Below, piece after piece: positions 5,579 to 54,413 of a DNA stretch of 54,413 bases. The notes beneath the pieces were generated by a model. The model made no database searches and was not told the DNA's origin. It worked only from the letters and a program-made list of their open reading frames with translations. The stretch spans positions 1 to 54,413 of the IMG/VR virus record IMGVR_UViG_3300030090_000446; one strand, given 5' to 3'. The position numbers and the translations under genes were made by a program. Source of the stretch: a virus. Within the stretch, counting starts at the first letter, position 1, and each line of letters begins with the position of its first letter.

Positions 5579-6643
5579 TTAACCAGCAATATTATAGTGA
5601 GCGCGAACTAGTGCTTCAGGACGAAGAACCTTGCGACCATATAAATGTAACCCACGAACGATGTCAGCAAAGCTGTCATTGTCACGATAAGTTTCGACCT
5701 TCTCTACTTGAGAAGCCGTAGCAACAGCAGAATCATGTCCAGCAACAATTGCACCATAATGTGCGCTTGAACCATTAGTATCAATGGTAGCTGGGCCTGT
5801 TCCTATTGAAGGTAAGTTGTTAGACATATAAACTCTAAAACCACGAACCATGCCAGAGATAATTCTACCATTACGTAGAATGTCTGGATCACTTGAAGCA
5901 AAATCACTGCTCAATAGTTTGGAGTTTTCGTCATTAAGCTGTTCAGCAAATACTGGATCAACAACAACCCAACGTCCATCACGGTCAACATTTTGCTGAT
6001 CGAGTAAACGAGCCATACGGTTTAGCACTTCCAAAGGAGTTGCTTCACCAGTAGATCCGTCAGGATGCGTTGCAATTGAATCAGTAGTAGCACCTCCCGA
6101 CACAAAACTTGCGCGAGAAATTAACATAGAAGCTAGTAAACCATTAGCAGCTGCTCCTGCAATAGGATCAGTACCTGATTTATCAGCAGCTACTCTTGCA
6201 GTTCCAGCAACAGAGCTAATTGTAGCCTGTTTGAAACCTGTCAAGTAACCTAGTACTTCCATGTCAAATTGATCTTTTAGACGATAGCCAGCACGATCAC
6301 TAGCCATTGACTCAAAATTTACATGAGAATGAGCTTCTTCAATGTCATCGATTTTAAAAGCAAAGTAGTTAGCTTTATCGACAACAAGAGTAAAGTCATC
6401 ATCTTGTAGGTCTTGAGGAGTTACTTGCGTACCCCTTGCATATTCAGAAATTGTAATTTCTGGTTCTTTGATAATACGCACTGTATCACCAAAATTAGAT
6501 ATCTCACCAAAGTAATCACTGTTGGTTATATCTTCACAAACACTAGTTTTACGGAAAGCTGATTGTACCTTCTTGCTGTAAATTACAGGAGAGAAGTTAC
6601 CATTAGGTAGATTTCCATAACCAGTTGCAGTCTTAAAAGCCAT
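5579..6643 (-). CDS. Major capsid protein
   Basis: 354 aa, begins MAFKTATGYGNLPNG. The N-terminal part (SPVIYSKKVQSAFRKTSVCE, ISNFGDTVRIIKEPEIT, then VDKANYFAFKIDDIEEAHSH) is typical of HK97-fold coat proteins of marine podoviruses. WVVVDPVFAEQL and the C-terminal GLHLYGRKVLRPEALVRAHY fit the same family. The scaffold lies immediately upstream and the decoration protein downstream. A strong Shine-Dalgarno (AAAGGAGA) and a dedicated consensus promoter at 6848-6876 fit the most abundant virion protein. Confidence 0.9.
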   Translation of the reverse strand: MAFKTATGYGNLPNGNFSPVIYSKKVQSAFRKTSVCEDITNSDYFGEISNFGDTVRIIKEPEITISEYARGTQVTPQDLQDDDFTLVVDKANYFAFKIDDIEEAHSHVNFESMASDRAGYRLKDQFDMEVLGYLTGFKQATISSVAGTARVAADKSGTDPIAGAAANGLLASMLISRASFVSGGATTDSIATHPDGSTGEATPLEVLNRMARLLDQQNVDRDGRWVVVDPVFAEQLNDENSKLLSSDFASSDPDILRNGRIISGMVRGFRVYMSNNLPSIGTGPATIDTNGSSAHYGAIVAGHDSAVATASQVEKVETYRDNDSFADIVRGLHLYGRKVLRPEALVRAHYNIAG

Positions 6644-7786: not shown

Positions 7787-10456
7787 TCACACAGTTGTTT
7801 GTGACATTAAACCTGCTTGTGAACGTGGTACATATCCTACGCCCTCAATATAAATATTATTATTAAGTAAATCTTCTAGACCAGTTGTTTTAATTTCTTC
7901 TTCTTTTATATCACCATCTACTAATTTATTTATATCATCATCATCTGAATCTCCAGGTTGGCTTGCTTCTGCTTCTGCTGCTTCTCTTTCTCTAGCACGT
8001 GCTTCAGTAACTTCAACCCCCATTCTTTCACCAAGTTTTCCTAGACCATACAACCCTTTTTCTACGAATCCTTTTTTAGAAGCTTCATATGCTCTATCAA
8101 GTTCTGTCATATCTTTCTCTTTTTCTCTTGCTCTGTCTTCATTAGGATTACTTTGAGTTTCAGATTTTTCAGTAGCTCTGTCACGATCAGGATTTCCTTT
8201 ACCTTCTTGTTCATCTACTGCATCATTTGGTTGACTTGGACCTGCTGGTGCTGCTGGGCCACTAGGTTCTCCCATGCCGCCCATTGGATCATCACCATCT
8301 GTACCAGTACCACCACCATTAAACATTAATGGCTCTGGACACATCATACCTTTTGGTTTAGAAGATGCGATAATAAGTGTACCTTTAGATATAGCCTCTT
8401 CACCTTCTTCTGGTTCTAAGAACTTCATCTCTTTGTCATCTTCTTCAGGCTCACCATTCTTATCAACATTCTGGATCATACCTAGATCTTCCATCTGTTT
8501 TATCTCTGATAATACCTGACGATGCATATCCATAATACGCTCTAGTCCTAAATACCTTACAACATTAGCAGGCAGTACGTATTCACCTTCTGACAACATT
8601 GCAGGTATATCATCAGCTACTTCTTCTGGTTTAGCTAGAGGTGGTGGATCACCTTCATCATCATCTTCTTCTTTCTTACCATCAAAGTCTGCTGTACCAC
8701 CTTCATCAAATCTAGCTACATCTTCTTTAGGATCAGCTTCACCACCCAAAGGTTGAGCCTCATCTGCAAAAAAATCTGTATCAGGATCTTCATTAGTAAA
8801 TAAACTTCTAAAGAAACTGAAGTCTCCTAAGTCCTCTGGTTCATCTTCTGTTTGTCTAGAAAATCTTTCTCTTTCTAAATTATCATCTTCAGTAAACGGA
8901 TCTATTGTTGTGTCTATTTGTTCTTCAGGGAATGACATAGGTTGCATATCTTCATCTTCACCTTCATCAAACTTAAATAAATTATCTCCTCCAAGAGCTG
9001 CAACTTGATTATCTTCTTCTGCTGTTCCTACAATAAAAGGTGCTTCTAAATCTTCTTTAGATGCATCTTTAAGATCATCTTCTGTTTTTGGTGGATCATC
9101 ATCTAACAATTCAGGGTCCATACCAGATGTTAGCATAGCCCTTTCTCTTTCATCCATTGTTGAAGTATCTCTTAATAGTCTATCCATCTCTTGATCTACA
9201 TCTGGAGATTCTACTTCTTCTATCTCAGGAGTCTTTAAACCTTCTCTAATTGATTCTATAATCTTTTGTTTTTTTGTTTTTGAAGCTGTCTTAGCCTCTC
9301 TAGGTAGAGTTTTTATCATTTCTTTAAACATATCATCAGTAGAGATTGAATCTATACTCACATTAGGTTGTTCTGATGCTTCTGCTTTACTCATTATATT
9401 AAACCCTCCTCTTGAATCTGAAGTATCCTTTCGCTCAACTTTTGGAATACTAAATTTGTAGATATCTTCAGCTTCTTGTTCATCTCTTGTATCAGTATTA
9501 GGAAATACATCATCAGCTTCTTGATCATCTATAGCTTCATTATTAGTAATACTACCATCTGGATTTACTGAAAAGGCTCCTCCAAACACACCTTCTGGTT
9601 CTTTTTCTTTTACAATACTACGAAACCTATCTACAAGGTTATCTACATTTTCATTTATTATATTTTCATTAGGATTACTTTGAGTTTGAGAACGCTCTGA
9701 TGAAAGACCTAAATTTTCCATTTGATCTTCTGTAGTATCTTTACTTGATGATTCTTTACTATACGTTTCAACTAATTTTTCAACAGCATTTTTTCCAAAA
9801 GGAAGTCTTGTTTTATTTTTAGTACTATTTCCTATACTATCAACTCTAGTTACTCCATCCCACCCATCTGTTGTATTTTTAGGGCTTCCTTTTTTACCTA
9901 TTCTTGTTATAAGCAACGTAGAATTTCTTTTTGAAGGATTTTCAATATAATTATTTAATTCTGTTTCAGCTATTTCTATTATTAATTCTTTAGCTATATT
10001 TTTTTGAGCTTCTTCATTAAATATATCAGTATCTTTATATCCTAATTGTTTTTGAAAGGTTGCTACTATTGGATTATTTGTATTATAGTCATTTGCTAGT
10101 AATTGAAAAGCACCTACTGCTGAAGTACCACTATTATTACTACCTATTTTAAAATTACCATTTTTATCTTTTCCTTTAGTTGCATTAACTAATGCTCTAC
10201 CAAATTCTTTTACCTCTTTAAAGGTCATTTTACTTATGGGTTTATTTGCGGTAGGTGTATTTCTTTCAGGATCAGGTTGCCCAGGTTTTAAAAATTTACC
10301 ATATCCAAAAACTTTATCATAAGAACTTCCTTCTCCTTCATCTGTACCTTCTTGTTCGATTATTATTTTTAATAAAGTATTTAATACAGCGTTACGTTTT
10401 GAAAATCTATCAGTTAAATCCTGTTTAATTTTTCTTTCAATAGGTCTACGAGCCAT
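7787..10456 (-). CDS. Large acidic virion protein with N-terminal lysozyme-like domain
   Basis: 889 aa. Residues ~28-180 resemble phage muramidases: LLKIIIEQEGTDEGE gives the candidate catalytic Glu, then SGTSAVGAFQLL, the GxYQ-like segment, and a helical NEEAQKNIAKELIIEI. The central ~400 residues are very acidic and low-complexity. A conserved-looking patch follows (DDIPAMLSEGEYVLPANVVR), then Gly/Pro-rich and charged tails. It lies between portal and scaffold. Such domains usually help local cell-wall digestion during DNA ejection, but release lysozyme is also possible because no separate endolysin is evident in this window. The PLGGEAD motif (~residue 575) recurs in the protein at 41564-42184. 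Confidence 0.6.
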   Translation of the reverse strand: MARRPIERKIKQDLTDRFSKRNAVLNTLLKIIIEQEGTDEGEGSSYDKVFGYGKFLKPGQPDPERNTPTANKPISKMTFKEVKEFGRALVNATKGKDKNGNFKIGSNNSGTSAVGAFQLLANDYNTNNPIVATFQKQLGYKDTDIFNEEAQKNIAKELIIEIAETELNNYIENPSKRNSTLLITRIGKKGSPKNTTDGWDGVTRVDSIGNSTKNKTRLPFGKNAVEKLVETYSKESSSKDTTEDQMENLGLSSERSQTQSNPNENIINENVDNLVDRFRSIVKEKEPEGVFGGAFSVNPDGSITNNEAIDDQEADDVFPNTDTRDEQEAEDIYKFSIPKVERKDTSDSRGGFNIMSKAEASEQPNVSIDSISTDDMFKEMIKTLPREAKTASKTKKQKIIESIREGLKTPEIEEVESPDVDQEMDRLLRDTSTMDERERAMLTSGMDPELLDDDPPKTEDDLKDASKEDLEAPFIVGTAEEDNQVAALGGDNLFKFDEGEDEDMQPMSFPEEQIDTTIDPFTEDDNLERERFSRQTEDEPEDLGDFSFFRSLFTNEDPDTDFFADEAQPLGGEADPKEDVARFDEGGTADFDGKKEEDDDEGDPPPLAKPEEVADDIPAMLSEGEYVLPANVVRYLGLERIMDMHRQVLSEIKQMEDLGMIQNVDKNGEPEEDDKEMKFLEPEEGEEAISKGTLIIASSKPKGMMCPEPLMFNGGGTGTDGDDPMGGMGEPSGPAAPAGPSQPNDAVDEQEGKGNPDRDRATEKSETQSNPNEDRAREKEKDMTELDRAYEASKKGFVEKGLYGLGKLGERMGVEVTEARAREREAAEAEASQPGDSDDDDINKLVDGDIKEEEIKTTGLEDLLNNNIYIEGVGYVPRSQAGLMSQTTV

Positions 10457-10457
10457 G

Positions 10458-10682
10458 TTAAGTTCCTTTTAATATTGTCTGTACTTCTAAACGCATACTC
10501 TTTAACTTTTTAAGTATAGCGATAGCACCCTGCGCTCTATATATTTCTACTTCATCATCACTTTGCTCTAGCACACGTAGCGCATCATGCTTCTTACAGT
10601 CTAAGTACAAACTAAATAACTCTTCAAAATCTGGTGTATTTACTAACGGTAAAATCTCTCTAGCAGTTTTAACGTCAAGCAT
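10458..10682 (-). CDS. Small hypothetical protein between portal and lysozyme-fused gene
   Basis: 74 aa, helical, begins MLDVKTAREILPLVNTPDFE. I chose the ATG at 10682 because GGAGG sits 8 nt upstream, inside the portal 3' end. A longer GTG-started version (10691) is possible. The start overlaps the portal stop. No family recognised; the position suggests a head-assembly helper. Confidence 0.65.
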   Translation of the reverse strand: MLDVKTAREILPLVNTPDFEELFSLYLDCKKHDALRVLEQSDDEVEIYRAQGAIAILKKLKSMRLEVQTILKGT

Positions 10683-11445
10683 TACCACCACCTCCTTGCT
10701 GTAGCATAGCCATTAACTCTGGTGGTATTTGTTGTCCTCCACCTTGAGGAGCTTGTGCCTGTTGTTGTTGCTGTTGTGTTCCTGCATTAGGTCCACCACC
10801 TGTAGCAAATCCTTGTTCTTGCGGTGCAGGTGCTTGACCAGTTCCTATATTACCACCTCCTGCTCCAGTTGGATCTAATCCCTGTTGAGGTTGTGGGTTC
10901 TCTTCTGCCATCTGTTGTTGCATCTGTTGTAGTAATAATGCCTGCCTAAATGCTTCTTCAGGATTATTTGTTACTTTATCTACATCCAGATCCATAGTTG
11001 CTGCTATCTCACGCATGATGTATGGGAACTTAGCAAATGGTGCTAGTACAGGACTGCTTGCAATCTGTAAGAAACTAATAAGACGTTGGGATCTAACTTC
11101 ATTTTTCATAAAGCTTTCTGTGCCTCTAGCCCTAATCTCTAGATCACCTTTTATCTCTGGATCAAAGTCAAACTGCATATTAAATGCAAACAATGCCTCA
11201 CCCATTGGACGTAACATATAGTCATCCATGTTCTTAATTACTGTACGGATAGCATTACTTGCTGCACCCATCAACATAGATATGCCCGATGCAGTTCTAC
11301 CTGTTCCTTGCACACCAGTTTGTCCGTATGAGTATGATGGTAATCCTGATGACTCATCTGATAATACTCTAGCTTTATCAAACAACATTTTCACTTGACA
11401 CGTTTGGAAACTTAGTACCAAATATAGCTTGACCAGGCGCACCAC
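10675..11445 (-). CDS. Portal protein, C-terminal part (second frame of a frameshifted gene)
   Basis: Homology-like portal sequence begins around MLFDKARVLSDESSGLPSYS (from 11388) and continues with GQTGVQGTGRTASGISML, MDDYMLRPMGEALFAFNMQF and a Gln/Gly-rich tail. These are the clip/barrel parts of the portal. The first ~19 residues of this open frame overlap the upstream frame and do not look like portal, and no Shine-Dalgarno precedes the internal ATG at 11388. I read this as the continuation of the gene at 11378-12865 after a +1 shift, not as a separate gene. Confidence 0.8.
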   Translation of the reverse strand: MVRLVKLYLVLSFQTCQVKMLFDKARVLSDESSGLPSYSYGQTGVQGTGRTASGISMLMGAASNAIRTVIKNMDDYMLRPMGEALFAFNMQFDFDPEIKGDLEIRARGTESFMKNEVRSQRLISFLQIASSPVLAPFAKFPYIMREIAATMDLDVDKVTNNPEEAFRQALLLQQMQQQMAEENPQPQQGLDPTGAGGGNIGTGQAPAPQEQGFATGGGPNAGTQQQQQQAQAPQGGGQQIPPELMAMLQQGGGGNA

Positions 11446-12865
11446 CTTGTCTTCTAAAGATTTTACCAGGATATACTGTAAGATCCTGACCAGGTGCTAG
11501 GTTTGTTTCATCTACTTCAATCAATAGATTACCAGATAAGATAGCATTGTCAACTGCTAATCTCATAAATCCATTCATTAATGTTTGGGTATCATCCATG
11601 TTCTCTGCTAGACCTACACCAAAGAAACTGTATGGGTTGATCTCGTATGGACTTGCAACGTAAGGGATACGTTTAGGTGTGAATGGGTTAATAACAAATC
11701 TTAGAATTTGATTGTTACATACCCAACAGTTAATCTGTATCTCATCATCATTGATATACTTCTCAGGTATTTCTAGATCCTGTAGCGTTGCTATATCTTT
11801 ATCTATTGTACCCCAAAACTCTAGTACTTCAAAGCGTTCTACATCACCAGATCCACTACCAGCAGAATGACCATCACTTCCAAAATCAGAAGCAGTTTCA
11901 GCATCCTGTATACTATCTTCCCACCATTCCTGAGAATAGTTTTCACCATAACCAATAGCTTCTTCTATAGCTTTAGATCTAAAGAAAGGACGTTTCTTCA
12001 ATGCTCTTAGTTGTGGTCTAGTTAAACGATGGCGTTCAATTGTATACGTAGCATCTTCTATGTTAAATGCATCTGGATCAGGATAGAAATCCCACACAGA
12101 AGTATACTCTACCTTTGGTATTGTTTTGATAATTGGATCATACTCACCCTCTTCATCCCAGTTTGGGTATTCTTTATCTACAGCAAACGGACCTTTCATT
12201 ATTGCAGTACCAAACAGTACACACTCAAATACAGAGTGTCTTAGATGTTTAGTTGCAGAGGATTCTTCTAACTGATCTTTAATTTTCTTTTCCATCTTTT
12301 TAGCTGCAATCATAGATGGATGGAATGTAATAGCAGATTGTGTTTGTCCTGGTCCTTCTTTAAGACCTTCTAATTCTTCTAGGTCTTCTTGTAAAGGTCC
12401 AAGCATATCTTTCAACATATCAGTGGTAGTACCAGGATCTAATTCTTTACCATCACCAGGATAACCATATTGATCTTTTATTTGCTCTAGTGCATCTTCC
12501 TGTTCCTGTTCTTTTGGATCTATGTGAACAGTATCTAATACACCTTCAGGTAATGCTGTAGGTTCTATACCAATAGGAAATCTATTCTGACTAAATAGAA
12601 CATCTATAAGTTGACCATACGCAGCAAGTACTTTGGTCTTTGTTACTTTAATAAATACTCTTGACTTTTCTGTTTCGGTAAACTGAACATCAGGACCATA
12701 TAACCCACGATAGTTTCTATATGCCTGCACCCATCTTTCTTCATCTGTATATCTTCTAGTTCTTGCACGTTCGTATCTGCCCTTGACATAACTAACTAAA
12801 TTATCGTAGGTTTCTTCTTCAGTGTCATCATCCTCTAATGCACTTAGTTTATTTTTGTCTACCAT
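11378..12865 (-). CDS. Portal protein, N-terminal part (frameshifted gene)
   Basis: 495 aa. It begins MVDKNKLSALEDDDTEEETY with YVKGRYERARTRRYTDEERW and YRGLYGPD, typical of marine podovirus portals. VEYTSVWDFYPDPDAFNIED, NPYSFFGVGLAENMDDTQTL and YPGKIFRRQGGAPGQAIFG follow in order. It then stops abruptly at VSSENVV, where family members continue. The rest of the protein lies in the +1 frame downstream (10675-11445), so the full product would be ~720-730 aa. The portal forms the dodecameric ring through which DNA is packaged. The start has AAGGA 8 nt upstream. Confidence 0.88.
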   Translation of the reverse strand: MVDKNKLSALEDDDTEEETYDNLVSYVKGRYERARTRRYTDEERWVQAYRNYRGLYGPDVQFTETEKSRVFIKVTKTKVLAAYGQLIDVLFSQNRFPIGIEPTALPEGVLDTVHIDPKEQEQEDALEQIKDQYGYPGDGKELDPGTTTDMLKDMLGPLQEDLEELEGLKEGPGQTQSAITFHPSMIAAKKMEKKIKDQLEESSATKHLRHSVFECVLFGTAIMKGPFAVDKEYPNWDEEGEYDPIIKTIPKVEYTSVWDFYPDPDAFNIEDATYTIERHRLTRPQLRALKKRPFFRSKAIEEAIGYGENYSQEWWEDSIQDAETASDFGSDGHSAGSGSGDVERFEVLEFWGTIDKDIATLQDLEIPEKYINDDEIQINCWVCNNQILRFVINPFTPKRIPYVASPYEINPYSFFGVGLAENMDDTQTLMNGFMRLAVDNAILSGNLLIEVDETNLAPGQDLTVYPGKIFRRQGGAPGQAIFGTKFPNVSSENVV

Positions 12866-44248: not shown

Positions 44249-45496
44249 TTAAACTGGCCTGTTATTCATCAGAGATGCATTTCTGGTAAGTAGTTGTTGA
44301 ATTAAAGCATCTCTTGGGTCAGCTGCCATTGGACCCATTGGACCTACTTGTTGATTACTAGGAGTAGCCCTTGGTGCAGATTGAGCAAACTGAGCTGCTT
44401 GTTGCTGTACTGCTGGTTGTTGTTGCTGTTGTCTTTGTTGTGCTATTGCTTCAGCTGCACGATTAGCTTGTTGACCTACGCCTTGAACTTGCGCTGTTAA
44501 AGCTGCTTGACCTGCTCTTTGTGTACCTTGAATATCACCACGTTGAGTTGTAGCACCACGTTGATATTGTTCAGCAGCAGTACGAAATGCTCCTAATTGA
44601 CTACCTAAACCAGATAAATCTCCTGATAGTTGATCTCCAATTCCTGATAAATCTCTACCTAATCCAGATATATCCTGAGTTAGTCCTGTTTGACCAGACA
44701 TTAATCCAGCCTGACCTGCATACAATCCAGTAGGTTGTTGTGTAACAGTACCGTCTTCACCAGTTACAGCAGCAGTACCTATCTGTTCACCTAATCCTGC
44801 CTGTCCTTCTTGCAATGCAACTTGATTTTCAGATAGTGTAGTTTGGCCTCCTGCCAATCCTGCTTGACCTGCAAATAGATCTGTTTGTCCTTCACCAGCA
44901 GTTCCAATACCTGACATGATACCTCTTTGACCTGCAAATAAATCTGTTTGTCCTTCACCTGCTTGACCAATACCTGATTGTATATCTGCTGTCTGACCCA
45001 TTAAAGTATCAGCTTGACCAGTTCCAGCAGTTCCTATACTTGTACCAATACCTCTTACTTGTCCTGCTAAAGGATCTACTACATCTCTTATACCTTGTTG
45101 ACCTGTAGCTAATCCTTGTGTTTGACCCATTAAAGTATCAGCTTGTCCTGTTCCTGGTGTTCCTATAGCACTAGTAACTGGGGTAAGATCTACAGGATCA
45201 GGTGCAGTAAAGGAAAATGTTTGATTACCGCTAGGTGGTGCATTAGTAAAAGTCTGACTTGAAACAGTACCATCAGGATTTGCTATACTAGTAGTAACAG
45301 TTCCATCTAAATTTTCTAAATTAGGTACACCTTTTCTGTTTTCATTTTTACCAAACGTATTGAAATGGTCTGCTACGTTAGCGAAATCACCCCTAGATAT
45401 CGCTAATAAAACATCACGATTTTCTGGTTGGCTTAAAAATTGTGTTTGTTCTTCATCAGAAAACACATAGTCACCATTAGGTAATTGTACTGCCAT
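44249..45496 (-). CDS. Gly/Gln-rich repetitive virion protein
   Basis: 415 aa. After a ~100-residue non-repetitive start (MAVQLPNGDYVFSDEEQTQF) the middle (~110-330) is made of short repeats such as GTGQADTLMGQT, GEGQTDLFAGQ and AGLMSGQTGL. The C-terminal third is Gln-rich. It looks like a flexible or elongated internal component. AGAGAGG precedes the ATG. No family recognised. Confidence 0.6.
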   Translation of the reverse strand: MAVQLPNGDYVFSDEEQTQFLSQPENRDVLLAISRGDFANVADHFNTFGKNENRKGVPNLENLDGTVTTSIANPDGTVSSQTFTNAPPSGNQTFSFTAPDPVDLTPVTSAIGTPGTGQADTLMGQTQGLATGQQGIRDVVDPLAGQVRGIGTSIGTAGTGQADTLMGQTADIQSGIGQAGEGQTDLFAGQRGIMSGIGTAGEGQTDLFAGQAGLAGGQTTLSENQVALQEGQAGLGEQIGTAAVTGEDGTVTQQPTGLYAGQAGLMSGQTGLTQDISGLGRDLSGIGDQLSGDLSGLGSQLGAFRTAAEQYQRGATTQRGDIQGTQRAGQAALTAQVQGVGQQANRAAEAIAQQRQQQQQPAVQQQAAQFAQSAPRATPSNQQVGPMGPMAADPRDALIQQLLTRNASLMNNRPV

Positions 45497-45740: not shown

Positions 45741-47198
45741 TTAACCTTTCACTATTATTTCTGTTGCAGATATAGCAGTTCCAGCCACAACACTAGGACT
45801 ATCTGCGCTTGTTCCTAATGTACCATCAGTCTGTACATAATATGTCTGACCTGCTGTTAAACCTGTTTGATCTTTATTTACTGTACCAACCACATCTATT
45901 GTAGCTTCTGCTGTATCAGCGTATGTACCACCTGATGCTAATCCTATGTAGTTTTCGGATGATGTTAAATTAGTTGATTCACCTTTATGTACAATAGCTG
46001 TACCATAATTAGAGTTTCCTGCATCTTGATAAGCAATGACTGCGCTATTAACATTACTGTCAAAAGATGCCCCAATATAGTTTGTTTCACCAGCATTAAA
46101 TACAGTTTCTCCACCATAACTAATATCTGTACCAGACACAGTTCCTATATTAATAGTTCCATGATCACTATTACTTCTGTCATTATAAATAGTAATTACT
46201 TTGTTAATACTACTGTTAAAAGTAGAAGATATATAATCATCTGTTTCTCCTGCATTAAACTCAACAATACTTCCAAAGCTAATTGAAGTTCCGCTTACTG
46301 TACCGACTACAGCTTTTCCTTTATTTGAGTCTCCTGTATCGCAATAACTAATTACAACTTTATTACTATTACTGTCAAAAACAGCACTATTTTTAACTGT
46401 ATTCCCACTTTCAAACTCAACAGCCGTACCAAAACTAATACTCGTACCAGAAACTGTACCAACTATAGCCTTTCCTTTAGTTGAATCTCCAGCATCTGAG
46501 TAAGCAATTACAACTTTATTGCTGTTACTATCAAACGTAGGACTAATATGAGGACTATTAGCACTTTCAAAAACTGCAGCAGATCCAAAACTAATAGATG
46601 TACCGCTAACAGTTCCTACAATAGATGTACCGTAAAAACTGTTGCCATTATCTTTATAGCATACAACTACTTTATTGACGCTACTATCAAACGTAGCTGT
46701 TACAGTGTTAGTTGATGCACTTTCAAAAACTGCCTCACTTCCAAAACTTATAGACGTACCGCTAACAGTTCCAACAATAGCAGTACCATATGCACTGTTA
46801 CCATCATCTGTATATACTATAACTACTTTATTAGTGTTAGAATCAAAAACAATATCTATGTATGAAGTTGCTGCATTATTAAATACAACAGGCGTTCCAA
46901 AAGTTATTGAATTATCGGATGAGTCTACAGTTGCTACAACAGCATTTCCTGTATTAGCTCCACCATCACTGTAAGCAATTACAATTTTATTGTTACTACT
47001 ATCAAAAGCTACAGCATTGTATATAGAACTGGCACTTTCATAGGTAGCTTCAGATCCAAATGTTGCTGCAATAGCAGTTCCAGATACCTGACTAACAGTA
47101 CCAGTGCTATTAACTAATACAGGCTTACCATTTGTAATCGCACCAGATGCAACAGCTTTATATTTACCTGCTTGTTTAGGGGGAACGTATGCTACCAT
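45741..47198 (-). CDS. Tail protein with one predicted seven-bladed beta-propeller
   Basis: 485 aa. The N-terminal ~57 residues end in GSEATYESAS. Seven repeats of ~52 residues then follow (~58-420), each with FDSNSNKVVIAYxDxGNSxxG, a turn, AIVGTVSGTSISFG and xxVxFESA. Repeat size, number and strand pattern fit blades of a propeller. The C-terminal module (TYYVQTDGTLGTSADSPSVV, AGTAISATEIIVKG) is shared with the next two propeller genes and is common in marine phage tail proteins. Likely role: binding host surface glycans or proteins. Confidence 0.75.
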   Translation of the reverse strand: MVAYVPPKQAGKYKAVASGAITNGKPVLVNSTGTVSQVSGTAIAATFGSEATYESASSIYNAVAFDSSNNKIVIAYSDGGANTGNAVVATVDSSDNSITFGTPVVFNNAATSYIDIVFDSNTNKVVIVYTDDGNSAYGTAIVGTVSGTSISFGSEAVFESASTNTVTATFDSSVNKVVVCYKDNGNSFYGTSIVGTVSGTSISFGSAAVFESANSPHISPTFDSNSNKVVIAYSDAGDSTKGKAIVGTVSGTSISFGTAVEFESGNTVKNSAVFDSNSNKVVISYCDTGDSNKGKAVVGTVSGTSISFGSIVEFNAGETDDYISSTFNSSINKVITIYNDRSNSDHGTINIGTVSGTDISYGGETVFNAGETNYIGASFDSNVNSAVIAYQDAGNSNYGTAIVHKGESTNLTSSENYIGLASGGTYADTAEATIDVVGTVNKDQTGLTAGQTYYVQTDGTLGTSADSPSVVAGTAISATEIIVKG

Positions 47199-47201
47199 TT
47201 C

Positions 47202-49784
47202 TTACCCTTTCACAATCAATGTAGAACCAGCTACTGCTGTTCCTGCTGTTACTGATGGACTATCTGCTGTCTGACTTAATGTACCATCTGTTTGTACATA
47301 ATATGTTTGGGCTGGTACTATGTCTTCTAGTATTCCAGCAGGTTGCAGAACTACTGATCTACCGTTATTGCTGTTATCAGCATCTCTATAGGTAAATACA
47401 GATCTTTTAGCATTAGAATCAAAACTAACGCCTACCCAAGATAATTCTCCACTATAAAACACAGCGGGAGAAGTAAATGATATTGATGTCCCTGACACTG
47501 TACCGATTACAAATGTTCCGTACTCACTATTACCAATATCTTCATAACCAATAATTACTTTATTAAGGTTACTATCAAAGTCTATTGCTGTGTAATTTAC
47601 AGAAGCACTTTCGTACACAACAGCAGTTCCGAAAGATATACTAGTTCCGCTAACCGTTCCAACTATAGCAGTACCGTAGTTAGAGTTTCCTTTGTCTTGA
47701 TAAGAAATAACTACCTTATTACTATTGCTATCAAATGTAATTGAGTTCCAATCGGACTCTGCACTTTCGTATACAACAGCAGTTCCAAATGAGATACTCG
47801 TTCCTGAAACGGTTCCCACAATAGCAGTTCCGTAATCACTATTTCCATTATCTCTATATGCGATAACAACTTTATTATTACTGCTATCAAAAGTTGCCCC
47901 CATGTGAAGAGCAAATGCGCTTTCAAAAACTACTGGAGTTCCGAAACTAATAGAAGTACCAGAAACTGTGCCTACAACAGCCGTACCGTAATTGCTGTTT
48001 CCTTGGTCTGTGTAAACAATAACAACTTTATTAGAGTTGCTATCAAAAGTTATCCCGTTTCTAGATGAGGTATTAGTGTTTGCACTTTCATATACAGTTG
48101 GAGAACCAAATGATATGCTATTGTCTGAAGTATCTATTGTTCCTACAATTCCAGTACCATAATACGAATTATCTTCATCTGTATATGCTACAACAATTTT
48201 ATTGCTATTAGAATCATGTATGATCTGACTATCTGTTATTTTAACATTACTATTAAATGCTACAGGTGTACCCCAACTAATACTGTTATCAGAAGCATTT
48301 ATCGTACCTACAGCAACAGTGCCATCATCATCACTTCCTGAGTCTACATAAGAAACAACAATTCTATTATTAGTGCTGTCAAAACAAGATGCAATACGAG
48401 ATGTACTAGCAGACTCAAAAGAAACAGCAGTACCTAGAGAACTAGAAGCAGATGCTATTTGCGGTATATTATCAGCAATAGCACCTTTAGTATTTATTGT
48501 AACAGGCTGTCCAGTTGCTACTGTATCTTGTGCAAAGCCTATAAAGTTTTCTGATGTTAAAGAAATAGGATTAAATGTTTTTATAACTATGGCTTTTCCT
48601 TTATTAGAGTCACCTGCATCTACAAATGCTACTATATTTTTACCAGTATCAGGATCATAAATAACACTGGTATAAGCCGTGCTACCCTCTTCAAACACTA
48701 TAGTTGAACCAAACGTAATATCTGTACCGCTTATAGTACCTGACTTAAACGATCCTTTATTAGAATTACCTTGATCTTTAAAAGTAAATACAGTTTTTTG
48801 TAAACTTGCATCATATACAGCATCGTTAGAAATAGCTTGACCATCATCAAATTCAGCCTCTGTTCCAAAACTTACATCTGTTCCACTTATTGTTGCTACT
48901 CTAGCTTTTGCTGTACTTGAAGTTTGATCCCTATAAACTAAAACTGATTTCTGTGCATTAACATCATAAGCTCCTGCAAGTGTATCAACTACATTAGTAG
49001 ATATAGTAGCTATAGTTCCAAAGCTAACACTTGTTCCACTTATTGTTGCTACTCTAGCTTTGGCAGGTGTATCACTACCACCAGATAAATTTTGATAATA
49101 AAAGATTAAATGCTTTTGAGCGTTTACGTCATATATAACATTTGGCTCTCTAGTATCCTCTGTTTCAAACTCTGCTGAACTACCGAAACTTATGCTTGTC
49201 CCACTGACCGTACCTACTATTGCTCTGCCATCGTCATCGTTATCGTAGTAAGTAATTAAATGTTTCTGAGCATTTACGTCATAGGCAATATGAGGCTCAT
49301 TGCCTTTAGTAGCATCATACGTTGCTTCAGATCCAAAGCTAATACTATTGTCTGAAGGATCAACAGTAGCTACTATTGCTCTACCGGGATTTGAATCTCT
49401 ATAAACAATAACTATTTTACTAGCATTAATATCAAAGCTAGAATTAAACATTCTAGTATTAGCAGATTTAAATACTACAGGACTTCCAAAACTAATACTA
49501 TTATCACTAGAATTTACCGTACCTACAATAGCTGTACCGTAATAGCTATTTCCACTATCTTGATATGCAATAACAATTCTATCTGCATTTGTGTCATATA
49601 CAGCAGAAGCTCTTAAATAAACTTGGTCAGCGTCAAACACAACAGCAGTTCCTGTTGCACCTCCAGTTGGAACACCTACAGTACCATCAGTATTCACAAC
49701 TACAGGCTTACCTCCAGTAATAGCACCAGAAGCTGTACCTTGTGTCTGCCTAGATAACTGTGGGTTATTACCAACGATACGCAT
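47202..49784 (-). CDS. Tail protein with two tandem seven-bladed propellers
   Basis: 860 aa. An N-terminal module (TASGAITGGKPVVVNTDGTV) is followed by seven blades (~55-415), a linker like the C-terminal module of the neighbours (SENFIGFAQDT, PVTINTKGAIADNIPQ), seven more blades (~455-815) and the terminal YYVQTDGTLSQTADSPSV module. The first propeller has a divergent blade consensus (YDVNAQKHLI); the second matches the DSNSNKVVI type of the sister genes. This suggests an old duplication plus newer homogenisation. Receptor binding is inferred. Confidence 0.75.
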   Translation of the reverse strand: MRIVGNNPQLSRQTQGTASGAITGGKPVVVNTDGTVGVPTGGATGTAVVFDADQVYLRASAVYDTNADRIVIAYQDSGNSYYGTAIVGTVNSSDNSISFGSPVVFKSANTRMFNSSFDINASKIVIVYRDSNPGRAIVATVDPSDNSISFGSEATYDATKGNEPHIAYDVNAQKHLITYYDNDDDGRAIVGTVSGTSISFGSSAEFETEDTREPNVIYDVNAQKHLIFYYQNLSGGSDTPAKARVATISGTSVSFGTIATISTNVVDTLAGAYDVNAQKSVLVYRDQTSSTAKARVATISGTDVSFGTEAEFDDGQAISNDAVYDASLQKTVFTFKDQGNSNKGSFKSGTISGTDITFGSTIVFEEGSTAYTSVIYDPDTGKNIVAFVDAGDSNKGKAIVIKTFNPISLTSENFIGFAQDTVATGQPVTINTKGAIADNIPQIASASSSLGTAVSFESASTSRIASCFDSTNNRIVVSYVDSGSDDDGTVAVGTINASDNSISWGTPVAFNSNVKITDSQIIHDSNSNKIVVAYTDEDNSYYGTGIVGTIDTSDNSISFGSPTVYESANTNTSSRNGITFDSNSNKVVIVYTDQGNSNYGTAVVGTVSGTSISFGTPVVFESAFALHMGATFDSSNNKVVIAYRDNGNSDYGTAIVGTVSGTSISFGTAVVYESAESDWNSITFDSNSNKVVISYQDKGNSNYGTAIVGTVSGTSISFGTAVVYESASVNYTAIDFDSNLNKVIIGYEDIGNSEYGTFVIGTVSGTSISFTSPAVFYSGELSWVGVSFDSNAKRSVFTYRDADNSNNGRSVVLQPAGILEDIVPAQTYYVQTDGTLSQTADSPSVTAGTAVAGSTLIVKG

Positions 49785-49792
49785 AGTAATCC

Positions 49793-50050
49793 TTACTCAG
49801 CGTTAGGATCTACCCAATCGGAGTTGTTAGTCCAACTGGTTCCATCAAAGAAATGCTTATTGCCTGACCAACCATCAGGCGCAGTCACATCTTCATGCAT
49901 TGTTGCATTGCTACTGTTAAGATCAGCGATATAGAAATCTACTGGATCACTACCTACTGTGATCATGTCAGATCCCATCGTTACTGGTTTATCATCAGCA
50001 AATACATATTTACTTAATTTAGTTGAGTTCTCTACGATTGTCTTAGCCAT
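49793..50050 (-). CDS. Small tail-associated hypothetical protein
   Basis: 85 aa, begins MAKTIVENSTKLSKYVFADD; beta-rich, ends FFDGTSWTNNSDWVDPNAE. It lies between two propeller genes with a clear AAAGGA site. The Trp/Asn/Asp-rich end is typical of small tail-fibre accessory proteins. No family recognised. Confidence 0.6.
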   Translation of the reverse strand: MAKTIVENSTKLSKYVFADDKPVTMGSDMITVGSDPVDFYIADLNSSNATMHEDVTAPDGWSGNKHFFDGTSWTNNSDWVDPNAE

Positions 50051-50057
50051 TTGTGTA

Positions 50058-52637
50058 TTATCCTTTCACAATTAAATCACTAGCACCTATTGCAGTTCCT
50101 GCGATTACTGATGGATCATCTGCGCTAGTACCCAATGTTCCATCTGTTTGTACAAAATATTGTTGTCCTATGGTGAGGTCTTCATCTGTTCCAGCATTAA
50201 CTAAAACTATTGCAGTGCCGTAGTTACTATTTCCAACATCTCTATACGTTATAACTGTTCTATTATTACTACTGTCATAAATAGGAGTTGAATATGTAGA
50301 AGTTGCAGCATTAAATACAACAGGTGTTGCAAAAGTTATATCTGTACCTGATACTGTGCCTGTTACCACTGTTCCTGCATAATATGCACCATCGTCACTA
50401 ATTCTCATATAAGTGATTATTACTTTATTAATTCCGCTATTAAAGGTAGTATGAGTTCTACTTTCTATCTCAATTTGAGCATCTTTAAATACAGATTCAC
50501 TACCAAAACTAATGCTAGTACCAGAAACTGTACCTACGATAGCAGTACCGTTTTGACCGTTTCCTATATCACTATATACAATAACTACCTTGTTACTATT
50601 GGAATCAAAAGTAATACCACCTACTTTAGTTTGTGCTGCATTAAATACCGCTGCTGAACCAAAACTAATACTGTTGTCTGATGAATCGACAGTGCCAACA
50701 ATAGCAGTGCCATGTTGAGAATTTCCATGATCTCTATACGCAATAACTACTTTGTTACTATTAGAATCAAATGTTATTGCTTGTTCCTCTGGATTAGCAC
50801 TTTCATATACAACAGGAGAACCAAATGATATAGATGTGCCACTTACTGCCCCTACTATAGCAGTAGCATAGTTACTATTTCCTTCATCTCTAAATGATAT
50901 TACAACTCTATTTACATTACTATCAAATGTAATTGAATGATCACTTATAACAGCATTTTCAAACTCAGCAGCAGAACCAAAACTAATGCTAGTACTAGAA
51001 ACTGTACCAACTATTGCATATCCATGACCTGAATCACCACCATTATTATACGCAATCACAACTTTATTATTACTACTATCAAAAGTAAGTACATTTTGTG
51101 AAGTTGCTGCACTATTATATACAACAGGAGTTCCATAACTTATAGATGAACCACTTACAGTAGCTACTATAGCTGTACCATAATTTGAGTTTCCAACATC
51201 TCTATATCCTATAACTACTTTATTGCTGTTAGAATCAAAGGTACTTGCAATCCAAGTAGAATCTGCACTTTCAAATACAGTTTCATCTCCAAATGCGTCA
51301 GAAGTAGATGCTATTTGCGGTATATTCCTAGAAATCGATCCAGTGGTTTTTACAGTAGCTTTTTGTCCATTAGCATATGCTGCGTTTGCAAAGCCTATAA
51401 AGTTTTCTGAGGTTAGGTTTAAATCACTTCCATTAAATACAACAGCCTTACCTTTATTACTATCTCCACCATCTGCATATCCTACAACTACCTTATTACT
51501 GTTACTGTCAAATGTTATACCAGGTGTTCCTGGCGCACCAGCTTCATAAATAATAGCGTCTGCTAACGTAACTGAATTACCGCTTACAGTTCCTACTATA
51601 AACTTACCTTTTGAATCATCTTGATCTCGATAAGCAATAACTATTTGATTACGACTAGTATCAAAAGTTGCTCTTGGATCACTAGGAGTTGAAGTTTCAT
51701 AATTAACAGCAGTTCCAAAACTACCAATGCTTGTTCCGCTAACTGATCCTACAATTACTGAACCTGCTGAAGCACCATTATTAGTATGAGATATAACTAT
51801 CGTATTATCATTGCTATTAAAACGTGGTCTATTGTGCTGTGATGTGTATGATCCAAAAACAGCAGGTGTTCCAAATGAGATACTTGTTCCGCTAACTGTT
51901 CCCACGATAGCAGTACCATAGCTAGAATTACCTGCATCTCTATATGCAATAACTACCTTGTTACTGTTGCTATCAAAAGTTATTCCACAATTTCTTGAAT
52001 CGGCAGCTTCAAATACAACAGCCGTACCAAAAGAAATACTATTATCTGATGGATCAACAGTGCCAACAATTGCTGTACCGTGTGCGCTATTTCCCTGATC
52101 ACTATAAGCAATTACAACTTTATTAGAATTGCTATCAAAAGTAATCTGACTTTCTTCTGGATACGCACTTTCAAAAACTACTGGCGTTCCAAATGAGATA
52201 GATGTCCCACTAACCGTTCCTACTACAGCAGTACCATAATTTGAGTTACTTCCATCAGCATAAGCAATTACAATTCTATTACTATTACTATCAAATGTAA
52301 CATCCTCATAAAAATGATTGCCACTTTCGTAAACTGCTTCTGATCCAAAAGAGATAGATGTTCCAGAAACATCACCTACAATTGCTGTACCATAATTACT
52401 ATTACCAGAGTCTGTAAAAACTATAACAACTTTATTACTACTGCTATCAAAAGCAGCACTTGCTGCTCCTGTACTAGCAGTTGCAAATACAACAGCAGTG
52501 CCTGTTGATGCTGCACTTCCGCTAATACCGCTAACAGTACCAGCAGAGTTTACAACAACTGGCGCACCATCTGTTATTGCACCACTAGCAATAGCTCGTA
52601 CTTCAGCATCTAAAGCTATGTCACCGACAGATCTCAT
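50058..52637 (-). CDS. Tail protein with two tandem seven-bladed propellers (paralogue)
   Basis: 859 aa, the same plan as the 860-aa neighbour: entry module (IASGAITDGAPVVVNSAGTV), seven ~52-residue blades, linker (SENFIGFANAAYANGQ), seven blades, exit module (FVQTDGTLGTSADDPSVIAG). Most blades carry FDSNSNKVVIAY and GTAIVGTVSGTSISFG. In the first propeller, blades 5 and 6 are the most divergent. AGGA precedes the ATG. Function as a receptor-binding or decoration protein is inferred from architecture and location in the tail cluster. Confidence 0.75.
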   Translation of the reverse strand: MRSVGDIALDAEVRAIASGAITDGAPVVVNSAGTVSGISGSAASTGTAVVFATASTGAASAAFDSSSNKVVIVFTDSGNSNYGTAIVGDVSGTSISFGSEAVYESGNHFYEDVTFDSNSNRIVIAYADGSNSNYGTAVVGTVSGTSISFGTPVVFESAYPEESQITFDSNSNKVVIAYSDQGNSAHGTAIVGTVDPSDNSISFGTAVVFEAADSRNCGITFDSNSNKVVIAYRDAGNSSYGTAIVGTVSGTSISFGTPAVFGSYTSQHNRPRFNSNDNTIVISHTNNGASAGSVIVGSVSGTSIGSFGTAVNYETSTPSDPRATFDTSRNQIVIAYRDQDDSKGKFIVGTVSGNSVTLADAIIYEAGAPGTPGITFDSNSNKVVVGYADGGDSNKGKAVVFNGSDLNLTSENFIGFANAAYANGQKATVKTTGSISRNIPQIASTSDAFGDETVFESADSTWIASTFDSNSNKVVIGYRDVGNSNYGTAIVATVSGSSISYGTPVVYNSAATSQNVLTFDSSNNKVVIAYNNGGDSGHGYAIVGTVSSTSISFGSAAEFENAVISDHSITFDSNVNRVVISFRDEGNSNYATAIVGAVSGTSISFGSPVVYESANPEEQAITFDSNSNKVVIAYRDHGNSQHGTAIVGTVDSSDNSISFGSAAVFNAAQTKVGGITFDSNSNKVVIVYSDIGNGQNGTAIVGTVSGTSISFGSESVFKDAQIEIESRTHTTFNSGINKVIITYMRISDDGAYYAGTVVTGTVSGTDITFATPVVFNAATSTYSTPIYDSSNNRTVITYRDVGNSNYGTAIVLVNAGTDEDLTIGQQYFVQTDGTLGTSADDPSVIAGTAIGASDLIVKG

Positions 52638-52645
52638 TTAAGTTC

Positions 52646-53020
52646 CTATGAAAGTTCTTCGTATGTAACAGTGTATGTTAAATCGTTAGCTGCACTTGCA
52701 GTAACACCAAGAGACTTATCTTCTTCTAAGTATAGCCCCACGTTTTTATCTATAATAACTACGAATGAGTCTGCTGGTACTGCTATAGTAGAAGCAATAA
52801 CTACTGCTGTTCCTGCTAAATCGTCATTCGGATATATTGCTACAGTAACAGTAGCTGAGTTTGTACCATCTACGTTAGATATAATAAGGCTGTTTATTTT
52901 CATTACCTTACCAGATGATGCAGGATTATTTACAGCATTAACTGCTGAAGTTCCTGTTAATAATGCGGTTGCTGTCTTTGCAGTAATGGTTGCTACATTG
53001 ACAATATTAGGTGCTGACAT
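52646..53020 (-). CDS. Small virion structural protein
   Basis: 124 aa. A beta-rich protein (KVMKINSLIISNVDGTNSAT, VTVAIYPNDDLAGTAVVIAS, TIAVPADSFVVIIDKN) similar to small structural proteins found beside tail-fibre genes in marine phages. AAGGAG precedes the ATG. It likely binds the fibre or head. Confidence 0.6.
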   Translation of the reverse strand: MSAPNIVNVATITAKTATALLTGTSAVNAVNNPASSGKVMKINSLIISNVDGTNSATVTVAIYPNDDLAGTAVVIASTIAVPADSFVVIIDKNVGLYLEEDKSLGVTASAANDLTYTVTYEELS

Positions 53021-53033
53021 ATTTTATCTCCTT

Positions 53034-54413
53034 TTAGCCAAATACCATTGCCATTGCAATAGCCTTACCTGTCGATGCTCTAGCATTCAATTGTGTTTGT
53101 ATGTTACTTGTTACACCGTCCAAGTAATCATATTCTGTATTGGTAACACCAGTATCATACAAATCTTTAAGATAGTTCAATTCAGTTACAGATCCATTAT
53201 ACCCATCTAATTTATTTATCTCTGCACCAGTAGATGTAATGGCTGTACCTGCATAGTTTAAGTTACCTGCTGCTATATTTACTTCACCAGTTCCTTTTGG
53301 TGTAATGTCTATGTCGATGTTAGAATCATCACCCATAGCTCCAACAACTACAGATCCACCTGTTGCTGCGTTAGTTATCTCTACAGCATTTACGGCAGAA
53401 CTCGCTGTCTGTAATACTATACCTTCATTACCGTTTGCATCAGCAATAAAACCACCATCAACTATCTTAGGTGCAGTTAGTGTTTTGTTTGTAAGTGTTT
53501 TAGTAGTACCAGCAAAATAAGTATCAAATGTATCTACAGATGTTTGTCTCATTGTACCTGCATCGTTAGTGACAATACCATCACTACCTGCAACTGCTGT
53601 AGTACCTACTGAGGTGTCACCATCAGAACTTGTATTGATTTCTGTACCTGTAGCTTGAACACCTTGAACATCCCTGTTAGCTTCTATATATGCTTTGATA
53701 CTTTGTTGTGTAGCTAGTTTAGTTGCACTATTACTACTAAAGTCATCTTCATCAGCTATGTCTGTAATTGTTATTGTACCGTCTGACAAACTTCCAAAGG
53801 TAACTGTGCCTGTTGATGTAATATTAGATGATCCAGTATTTATAGCACCAAATCCAGAAGTAATACTACCACTATTTAATGCACCTACTGTAGTAGCTGC
53901 TGTAGTTACTAGATTAGGCATTGCAGTTATTTCATCGTCAAAGTATGCTGCTAAGTCTGTTACTGCAACCTGTTTCATAGTGCCATCATCATTAACAACT
54001 ACTCTGTCTGCATCTACTATAGTAGTGCTTGATGCTGATGTACCACCATCCATAATATTTAATTCTTCAGGTGTAGCTGTAACTTGCGTTGTACTTACTG
54101 CTGCTAATACTGGAATTGTTCCCGATTGATTTGGAAGATTAATTGTACGATCAGCAGTTGGATCTATTATAGTTAATGTAGTTTCATGGTCATCAGCAGT
54201 AGCACCTTCAAACACGATTGCATTAGCTGCATTCATTGTAACTGTATCTACGATTGTCTGTGTGCCATTTACTGTTAAGTTTCCTGTAACAGTTAAGTTA
54301 TCGTTTACAGTAACTTCAGAGGTTGTATGACCTATGCTAACAGGAACACCACTAGTTTCTGTGGCTATCTTTAATGTACCTGTAGAATTAGCTATGAGAG
54401 AGTCAGTGCCATC
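53034..54413 (-). CDS. Tail fibre protein, C-terminal part (runs off the right edge)
   Basis: The frame is open from 54413 (no start inside is credible; the ATG at 54236 is internal) to the stop at 53034, 459 codons. It repeats the fibre segments of the left edge (GTIPVLAAVSTTQVTATPEE, NIMDG, ATKLATQQSIKAYIEANRDV). It then adds a unique C-terminus with LTNKTLTAPKIVDGGFIADA, ELNYLKDLYDTGVTNTEYDY and the ending STGKAIAMAMVFG, typical of fibre tips. Joining 54413 to 1 would keep the frame, but the joined text does not continue the repeat naturally. Confidence 0.78.
   Translation of the reverse strand, partial: DGTDSLIANSTGTLKIATETSGVPVSIGHTTSEVTVNDNLTVTGNLTVNGTQTIVDTVTMNAANAIVFEGATADDHETTLTIIDPTADRTINLPNQSGTIPVLAAVSTTQVTATPEELNIMDGGTSASSTTIVDADRVVVNDDGTMKQVAVTDLAAYFDDEITAMPNLVTTAATTVGALNSGSITSGFGAINTGSSNITSTGTVTFGSLSDGTITITDIADEDDFSSNSATKLATQQSIKAYIEANRDVQGVQATGTEINTSSDGDTSVGTTAVAGSDGIVTNDAGTMRQTSVDTFDTYFAGTTKTLTNKTLTAPKIVDGGFIADANGNEGIVLQTASSAVNAVEITNAATGGSVVVGAMGDDSNIDIDITPKGTGEVNIAAGNLNYAGTAITSTGAEINKLDGYNGSVTELNYLKDLYDTGVTNTEYDYLDGVTSNIQTQLNARASTGKAIAMAMVFG
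53517..54413. repeat. Diverged tail-fibre repeat, right copy (partner at 1-1000)
   Basis: Starts at the exact point that matches position 1 and runs to the window edge. The first 96 bases are identical to 1-96, the rest mostly similar with small indels. Confidence 0.8.

Follow-up and report, generated by a model that had tools for sequence, protein, structure and literature searches.

A cassette of predicted seven-bladed beta-propellers, probably receptor-binding tail adhesins, in a putative marine podovirus

The viral DNA analysed here (IMG/VR record IMGVR_UViG_3300030090_000446, positions 1 to 54,413; "the window" below means this whole stretch of 54,413 nucleotides) carries three long open reading frames (ORFs) in a cassette that adjoins a tail-fibre gene (Table 1). 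Their products, referred to as proteins A, B and C, are built around arrays of seven repeats of four antiparallel strands, as is evident from the repeat counts and from the DSSP assignments of the models of A and C. With blade starts anchored by hand on the F/Y-D turn, we count 7 blades in A and 7+7 in each of B and C, spaced by 50-57 amino acid residues (aa) inside the runs and by 91-92 aa between them, and the three proteins have entry and exit modules in common. All five arrays open with a lone fourth-strand segment (e.g. FGSEATYESA or LGTAVSFESA), and the terminal blade of every array has three strands, both in the sequence and, for A and C, in the DSSP of the models; since the last blade lacks a fourth strand and the segment before blade 1 is able to supply one, the strand order is that of a "velcro" closure. 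The first array of protein B is the most divergent of the five, with 40-43% identity to the other four. The initial annotation had proposed the 7, 7+7, 7+7 count and the shared modules around the arrays; the modules are indeed present in the sequence, and the count is borne out by the hand-anchored starts and by two tests on relatives, described below.

Table 1. Genes of the propeller cassette and its upstream neighbours in the window
Feature	Position	Strand	Description
Propeller protein A, 485 aa	45741-47198	-	One predicted seven-bladed ring (residues ~42-411) between an entry segment and an exit module without insert
Propeller protein B, 860 aa	47202-49784	-	Two seven-bladed arrays, the second within the exit module; assigned from sequence only
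85-aa accessory protein	49793-50050	-	Encoded between B and C
Propeller protein C, 859 aa	50058-52637	-	Two seven-bladed arrays, the second within the exit module
Conserved 124-aa protein	52646-53020	-	Directly upstream of the propeller genes
Tail-fibre gene, 3' part	53034-54413	-	Cut off by the end of the window; matches the L001 fibre at 83%

A scan of viral contigs gave 79 further loci (referred to by L numbers), some of them near-identical. Together with the window these make 80 loci, which hold three propeller ORFs in 43 cases, four in 3, two in 15 and one in 19, many loci being cut by contig ends. The gaps between neighbouring propeller ORFs (n=110) fall mainly into two classes, at most 15 bases (68) and 230-300 bases (37), with 5 others. 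The three propeller genes had been described as adjacent, but B and C are separated by an 85-aa ORF, which is, to judge by its homologues, part of the cassette: they occur in 57 of the 80 loci, and 36 matches (window excluded) sit between two propeller ORFs. With a hidden Markov model (HMM) trained on the blades of the window proteins and extended on relatives from the 79 loci, 166 complete ORFs were scored; 107 of them show exactly 7 blades and 29 exactly 14, together 136, a count that includes near-identical loci and the three ORFs of the window, where A scores 8 via its half blade. The remaining 30 ORFs yield 13 blades (12 ORFs), 6 (7), 8 (4), 12 (2), 4 (2), and 15, 5 and 3 (one each), mostly because a divergent blade was missed or the N-terminal half blade was counted. 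The distance from blade 1 to the exit motif provides a second test. Among 142 distinct complete ORFs with at least 5 usable blade hits, 140 have the motif, and 129 of these (the window's three included) show the seven-blade length directly, 4 fit by a second motif match after a false first one, and 4 more after a missed first blade is added; a seven-blade first array is thus found in 137 of the 140 tested proteins, with 3 not resolved. Locus L028 encodes three double proteins, perhaps six rings. Among collected phages, protein C matches only the cultivated Lentibacter phage ICBM2 (two records; host Lentibacter sp. SH36), and protein A matches ICBM2 and one single-cell marine virus record. At L092 (1427-8476) there is a fibre-like protein of 2350 aa in which 27 blades were detected, arranged as four successive groups (7, 7, 7, 6) that are each followed by a module; this locus comes from a metagenome-assembled genome labelled Euryarchaeota, in which a viral contig has possibly been binned.

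The fold was predicted with AlphaFold2 for A and C. The input alignments comprised 84 sequences with a single ring and 40 with two rings, the window proteins among them and the relatives picked by hand. The model of A has a mean predicted local distance difference test (pLDDT) of 92.6 and a predicted template modelling score (pTM) of 0.81; for C the values are 87.3 and 0.50. Among the best 50 matches listed, residues ~42-411 of model A align to solved rings with Z-scores of 28.9-32.8 over 293-349 residues, led by YncE (Z 32.8, root-mean-square deviation 2.5, 306 aligned) and the BP39L lectin (Z 32.6, 2.6, 317); virginiamycin B lyase, the PLL/PHL lectins (Z 29-31, identity 8-10%), integrin alpha and WD40 rings are also among them; a family outside the matches listed is not thereby ruled out. 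Nearly all matches listed for model C cover its first ring, and one, to Sec12 (Z 29.3), covers residues 445-818. Ring closure is judged by strand order, which fits it in all five arrays (in B from the sequence), and, for A and C, by the alignment of the models, along their ring, with closed ones. Counts, models and relatives together strongly support the seven-bladed propellers, probably closed, that the initial annotation had predicted.

Which kind of propeller these rings represent is less clear from sequence. Sequence searches of the PDB, among them those with protein C, the single-ring profile and the insert discussed below, returned nothing usable; in particular, neither protein C nor the profile matched PLL/PHL, and the profile's one match was an antibody chain (E 0.36). 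The three window proteins contain neither [ST]-x-D-x-G-x-[TS]-[WF], the Asp box of sialidases, nor D-x-[DN]-x-[DN]-G-x(1,2)-D, a pattern for calcium loops of the DxDxDG type in FG-GAP and integrin propellers, and the FG-GAP family of Pfam gave no match at E 0.1. The Pfam families matched within the repeats were Cyclophil_like2, which passed its cut-off, Agenet, CUB and NitrOD1; these matches cover short stretches and were rejected as due to chance in repetitive beta sequence. That the rings may act as lectins is a plausible guess, as the solved rings nearest to model A include lectins described as multivalent (PMC12203525); the fit of integrin and WD40 rings is, however, nearly as good. It could also be imagined that the rings are depolymerases or other glycan-cleaving tail enzymes, sialidase- or glycosidase-like propellers that clear surface polymer. 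Sialidases are among the best Foldseek matches by E-value, virginiamycin B lyase ranks fifth in VIA-align (Z 31.9), and depolymerase domains with six-bladed propellers have been predicted for Klebsiella phages (PMC11448410). We nevertheless regard this possibility as improbable, given the missing Asp box of the form searched, the lack of any Pfam enzyme family with credible coverage, and the highest VIA-align matches, which are YncE and a lectin; moreover, the near-invariant propeller columns of the single-ring alignment, inspected by eye, lie at positions repeated from blade to blade, and none is confined to a single blade in the manner of a catalytic residue.

The genomic context points to the tail. 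The terminase, coat protein and DNA polymerase of the window are of the HMO-2011 type, with Pelagibacter phage HTVC033P as the best-ranked terminase match (51%), and this relationship supports the earlier assignment to a podovirus. The polymerase has two CxxCxGxG motifs, given in PMC9038755 as a trait of the HMO-2011 group. The window has a G+C content of 36.0% and encodes a ribonucleotide reductase; the same source describes likely pelagiphage subgroups with 31.9-35.4% G+C that usually lack this enzyme, and a subgroup X of predicted Roseobacter phages with 34.4-39.0% G+C that possess it. The gene preceding the cassette is identified as a tail fibre through its relative in L001, the product of which is 51% identical over its N-terminal 170 aa to gp66, the putative tail fibre of HTVC033P, and shares 13 of the 16 last residues with it. 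The 124-aa protein is 52% identical to HTVC033P gp65, which lies at the corresponding place; its gene is found in 63 of the 80 loci, many of the others being cut short, and in all 62 loci (window excluded) that have both it lies upstream of the first propeller ORF, at a distance of no more than 60 bases. In HTVC033P the order is fibre, 124-aa homologue, gp64 (Pfam Gly_rich_2, E 5.7e-28), gp63 and gp62 (glycine-rich by eye), so that glycine-rich proteins stand where the window has propellers (L089:17343-21415). This arrangement suggests that one adhesin fold may have been replaced by another at a fixed site.

Fusions lead in the same direction. Blades follow N-terminal parts longer than 130 aa in six distinct ORFs, in L029, L043, L058, L092, L110 and L117; the N-terminal parts of L058, L043 and L029 match pieces of the window fibre (48-55% over 29-84 aa), L117 carries a tail-fibre domain of PHROG at its C-terminal end (E 2.9e-15), and the remaining fused parts look fibre-like by eye. 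In the window the propeller genes adjoin the tail fibre within the tail module, as expected for receptor-binding proteins, and in ICBM2 the propeller-related gene stands beside genes annotated as tail assembly chaperones; the small protein encoded just downstream of it, which bears this annotation, is related to the 85-aa protein. No match to the ICBM2 propeller protein was found in the sister phages ICBM1 and ICBM3. In PMC6775973, the stretch that runs from the terminase to the genome end is described as variable, and tail fibres, connectors and assembly proteins are assigned to it. The receptor-binding apparatus suggested in the initial annotation is therefore well supported, as far as sequences can tell, by the position of the genes, the fibre fusions, the glycine-rich protein at the same locus of an isolate and the variable loops described below. 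The other suggestion made there, a glycan-binding coat of the virion, fares less well: a location on the capsid is backed by one sub-threshold match only, and glycan binding would follow by structural analogy to propeller lectins. Under this explanation the rings would decorate the head and anchor the virion to particles or cells instead of forming a receptor-binding tip. We consider it very improbable, as the PHROG match in question (protein B residues 5-108 to a head-decoration family, E 0.088) is not significant, the propeller genes come after the tail fibre and not after the coat gene (5579-6643), the relatives fuse their propellers to fibre-type parts, and HTVC033P has a glycine-rich protein in the cassette position.

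A second line of evidence comes from the exit module, which appears to act as a loading site. In 129 ORFs, the distance between the E-N-Y-I-G and Y-F-V-Q motifs of this module is 37-38 aa in 89, 141 aa in 2, 293-300 aa in 2 and 398-422 aa in 32 (the exit motif was not found in 4). These classes correspond to an empty site, an insert of ~104 aa (L001, L002), another type of repeat (L023, L052), which by sequence resembles the SGL propellers of Pfam, and a second seven-bladed ring, as in B and C of the window. The counterpart of protein C in L002 has a first ring 97% identical to that of the window, lacks the second ring and has an uninterrupted module. Between the window and L001, the rings of protein C are 97% and 96% identical, and those of protein B 41% and 39%, with entry, middle and exit parts at 85-88%. 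Proteins with the ~104-aa insert are encoded at L001:11513-13276, L002:9180-10961 and in L057. A PHROG tail-fibre family overlaps the insert in L001 (E 1.4e-12), and by eye the insert has a His/Cys/His/Met pattern that we take to be blue-copper-like, for which Pfam and PDB searches of the L001 copy gave no support.

Different terminases accompany the cassette. The large terminase of the window is matched in 3 of 30 cassette-bearing records; Terminase_6N scores over the cut-off in 5 of 20 records, four of which (those behind L022, L028, L058 and L065) have no match to the window terminase. This finding favours a spread of the cassette among different phages; a record in which no terminase was seen may be a fragment. 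The variety of the site has a bearing on the idea that the rings are rigid spacers or parts of the tail knob with no role in recognition, for which there is precedent in the seven-bladed propeller contained in the nozzle protein of phage SU10 (PMC9509320), but to which we give a very slim chance, as empty, double-ring, 104-aa-insert and other-repeat forms among the relatives, and whole rings that differ between close relatives, are hard to square with a fixed part. It is quite possible, and we put it forward tentatively, that the proteins share a conserved docking module with one site that is either left empty or loaded with an entire folded unit, be it a further seven-bladed ring, a repeat of another type or the 104-aa domain, and that three such modules per phage would carry up to five or six multivalent receptor binders, reshuffled ring by ring between unrelated ocean phages.

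In propeller folds the same face carries both the DA and the BC loops, and many propellers use this face for ligands. Positional entropy was calculated for the 475 distinct blades of 52-aa spacing among 1471 anchors. Variability is highest at positions 11, 13 and 17, in the BC region, and at 43-49, in the DA loop and the start of strand A; mean entropies are 2.13 bits for BC, 3.01 for DA, 1.39 for AB and 0.96 for CD, the first two together exceeding the other two with a Mann-Whitney p of 0.0008, for loop limits set after seeing the profile. The ratio of non-synonymous to synonymous polymorphism (pN/pS) was determined for 12 close pairs, picked by hand from 32 overlapping pairs in which sequences recur, and comprising 24 different ORFs with none reused (L001 supplies two different ORFs), with columns in stretches below 60% local identity skipped. 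It amounts to 0.28 in BC+DA, 0.11 in AB+CD, 0.16 elsewhere in the blades and 0.23 outside them (Fisher p 7.7e-5), and the excess in BC+DA is seen in 8 of the 11 informative pairs, the twelfth pair having no changes in the loop classes. The variable loops are expected, from the sequence positions, to lie on one face of the ring. Diversity-generating retroelements were sought as a source of the loop variation, and RVT_1 was found in 0 of 22 records (window included), which may be fragments.

Taken together, the data make it considerably more probable than any alternative we have considered that A, B and C form a cassette of receptor-binding tail adhesins. What sequence or model shows is the number of blades, the predicted fold, the order of the genes, the fusions, the site of insertion and the pattern of variation; we infer the position in the virion, the class of ligand, the chaperone role and the effect on host range. 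Each protein would consist of a small structural module, made of the entry and exit segments, that bears one or two closed seven-bladed propellers. The module may attach each protein to the fibre or to the tip of the tail, aided by the 85-aa accessory protein, and the five different propellers of one phage would offer the variable loops of one face to the host surface, perhaps to envelope glycans. Host range may then shift both through point variation in the face loops and through exchange, gain or loss of whole rings at the fixed site.

Several observations weigh against this interpretation. The free-standing proteins have no recognised virion-anchoring domain, so that docking is deduced from the fused relatives, of which L043 and L029 have divergent arrays with few blades detected. 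With a pTM of 0.50, the relative placement of the two rings in model C is not confident, and the homologous protein of ICBM2, gp49, has only four HMM-detected blades, though its predicted structure matches model A. The loop analysis uses post hoc limits and only 52-aa blades, and faces are assigned by standard propeller topology. The excess in the face loops is reversed in 3 of the 11 pairs (L034-L062, L004-L038 and L006-L030), which have fewer non-synonymous changes per synonymous one in the face loops than in the AB+CD turns; the non-blade parts, at 0.23, come near the face-loop value; and where positive selection was sought, in the 12 pairs, pN/pS was below 1 in every class, so that the face-loop excess indicates weaker constraint only.

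Propeller domains in phage attachment proteins are already known. The C-terminal domain of PhiKZ gp131 (PDB 4GBF) is, as described in PMC4901313, likewise a seven-bladed propeller in a protein of the tail periphery and a proposed, unproven receptor binder; however, it belongs to the baseplate of a myovirus, and neither protein C nor the single-ring profile has a propeller sequence match in the PDB. The receptor-binding protein Gp45 of phi11 has a propeller platform closed by an N-terminal strand, as predicted here, but this platform is five-bladed and part of a trimer with a helical stem and tower, and the host is Gram-positive; the same source lists the attachment protein P2 of PRD1 as a distorted five-bladed propeller. 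The lectins PLL, PHL and BP39L share the predicted fold (Z 29-33), and PLLs are described as seven-bladed with sugar sites between the blades (PMC12203525); their identity is 7-10%, and they are bacterial lectins without the phage module. On the eBAP3 fibres of extracellular contractile injection systems (eCIS), a propeller lectin is carried on a tail-derived fibre (PMC12923769); these are contractile systems with collagen-like shafts, and the likeness is by description.

ICBM2 gp49 (AYP28108.1) has homologous repeats (30% over 272 aa), a predicted structure that matches model A (E 9.4e-25) and the homologous small neighbour mentioned above, but it is a single such gene, of 515 aa, annotated as hypothetical. 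Two unnamed viral proteins in BFVD, A0A516MFK3 (474 aa) and A0A516MG07 (865 aa), are 49% and 48% identical to protein A and have the same predicted fold at single- and double-ring lengths. Adhesins of the gp38 type found at the tips of fibres have a polyglycine fold, to which the HTVC033P locus seems closer than the window. The gp38 of PP01/S16-type phages resembles the cassette proteins, as interpreted here, in being a separate fibre-tip protein that binds the receptor (PMC12892980).

Other features of the window deserve mention. Both of its ends (1-2169 and 53034-54413) lie in tail-fibre genes with overlapping but different content: the end pieces, of 723 aa and 459 aa, match the 877-aa fibre of L001 at 88% and 83%, and the first 60 bases of the window recur at 53517. 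Possibly the contig represents a circular map that is almost complete and was opened within a variable fibre gene; alternatively, it may hold two fibre genes. Downstream of the cassette, 44249-45496 encodes a 415-aa protein with GTAGTGQADTLMGQT-like repeats and without a PHROG match. Overlapping ORFs at 10675-11445 and 11378-12865 match two halves of phrog_332 (connector, head-tail adaptor), and the longer also matches a portal family, so that the portal gene appears, by these matches, to be split; between it and the coat gene, 7787-10456 encodes an 889-aa protein with no PHROG match at E 0.001. The ORF at 16132-16839 matches phrog_3704, annotated as ferredoxin (E 9e-29).

The initial annotation had called the apparatus unusual. 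It is not rare, as the 79 loci, some near-identical, come from viral contigs alone, and many uncultivated marine phages, judging from these sequences, carry the same kind of gene set; on the other hand, in the open-licence literature searched we found no account of a set of three such genes, of double rings, of one loading site or of their spread among marine phages, which is not proof of absence. Within one phage group, proteins of different fold, glycine-rich in one case and propellers in another, seem to occupy the same locus. To our knowledge, it is largely open what the dominant bacteria of the ocean (the SAR11, SAR116 and Roseobacter groups) show to phages, and how podoviruses of the ocean change host. 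The single rings, of ~370 aa, are suited to expression, structural work and glycan arrays. If the rings are receptor binders, their variation on one face and the exchange of whole rings would constitute a readable metagenomic record of host-range evolution.

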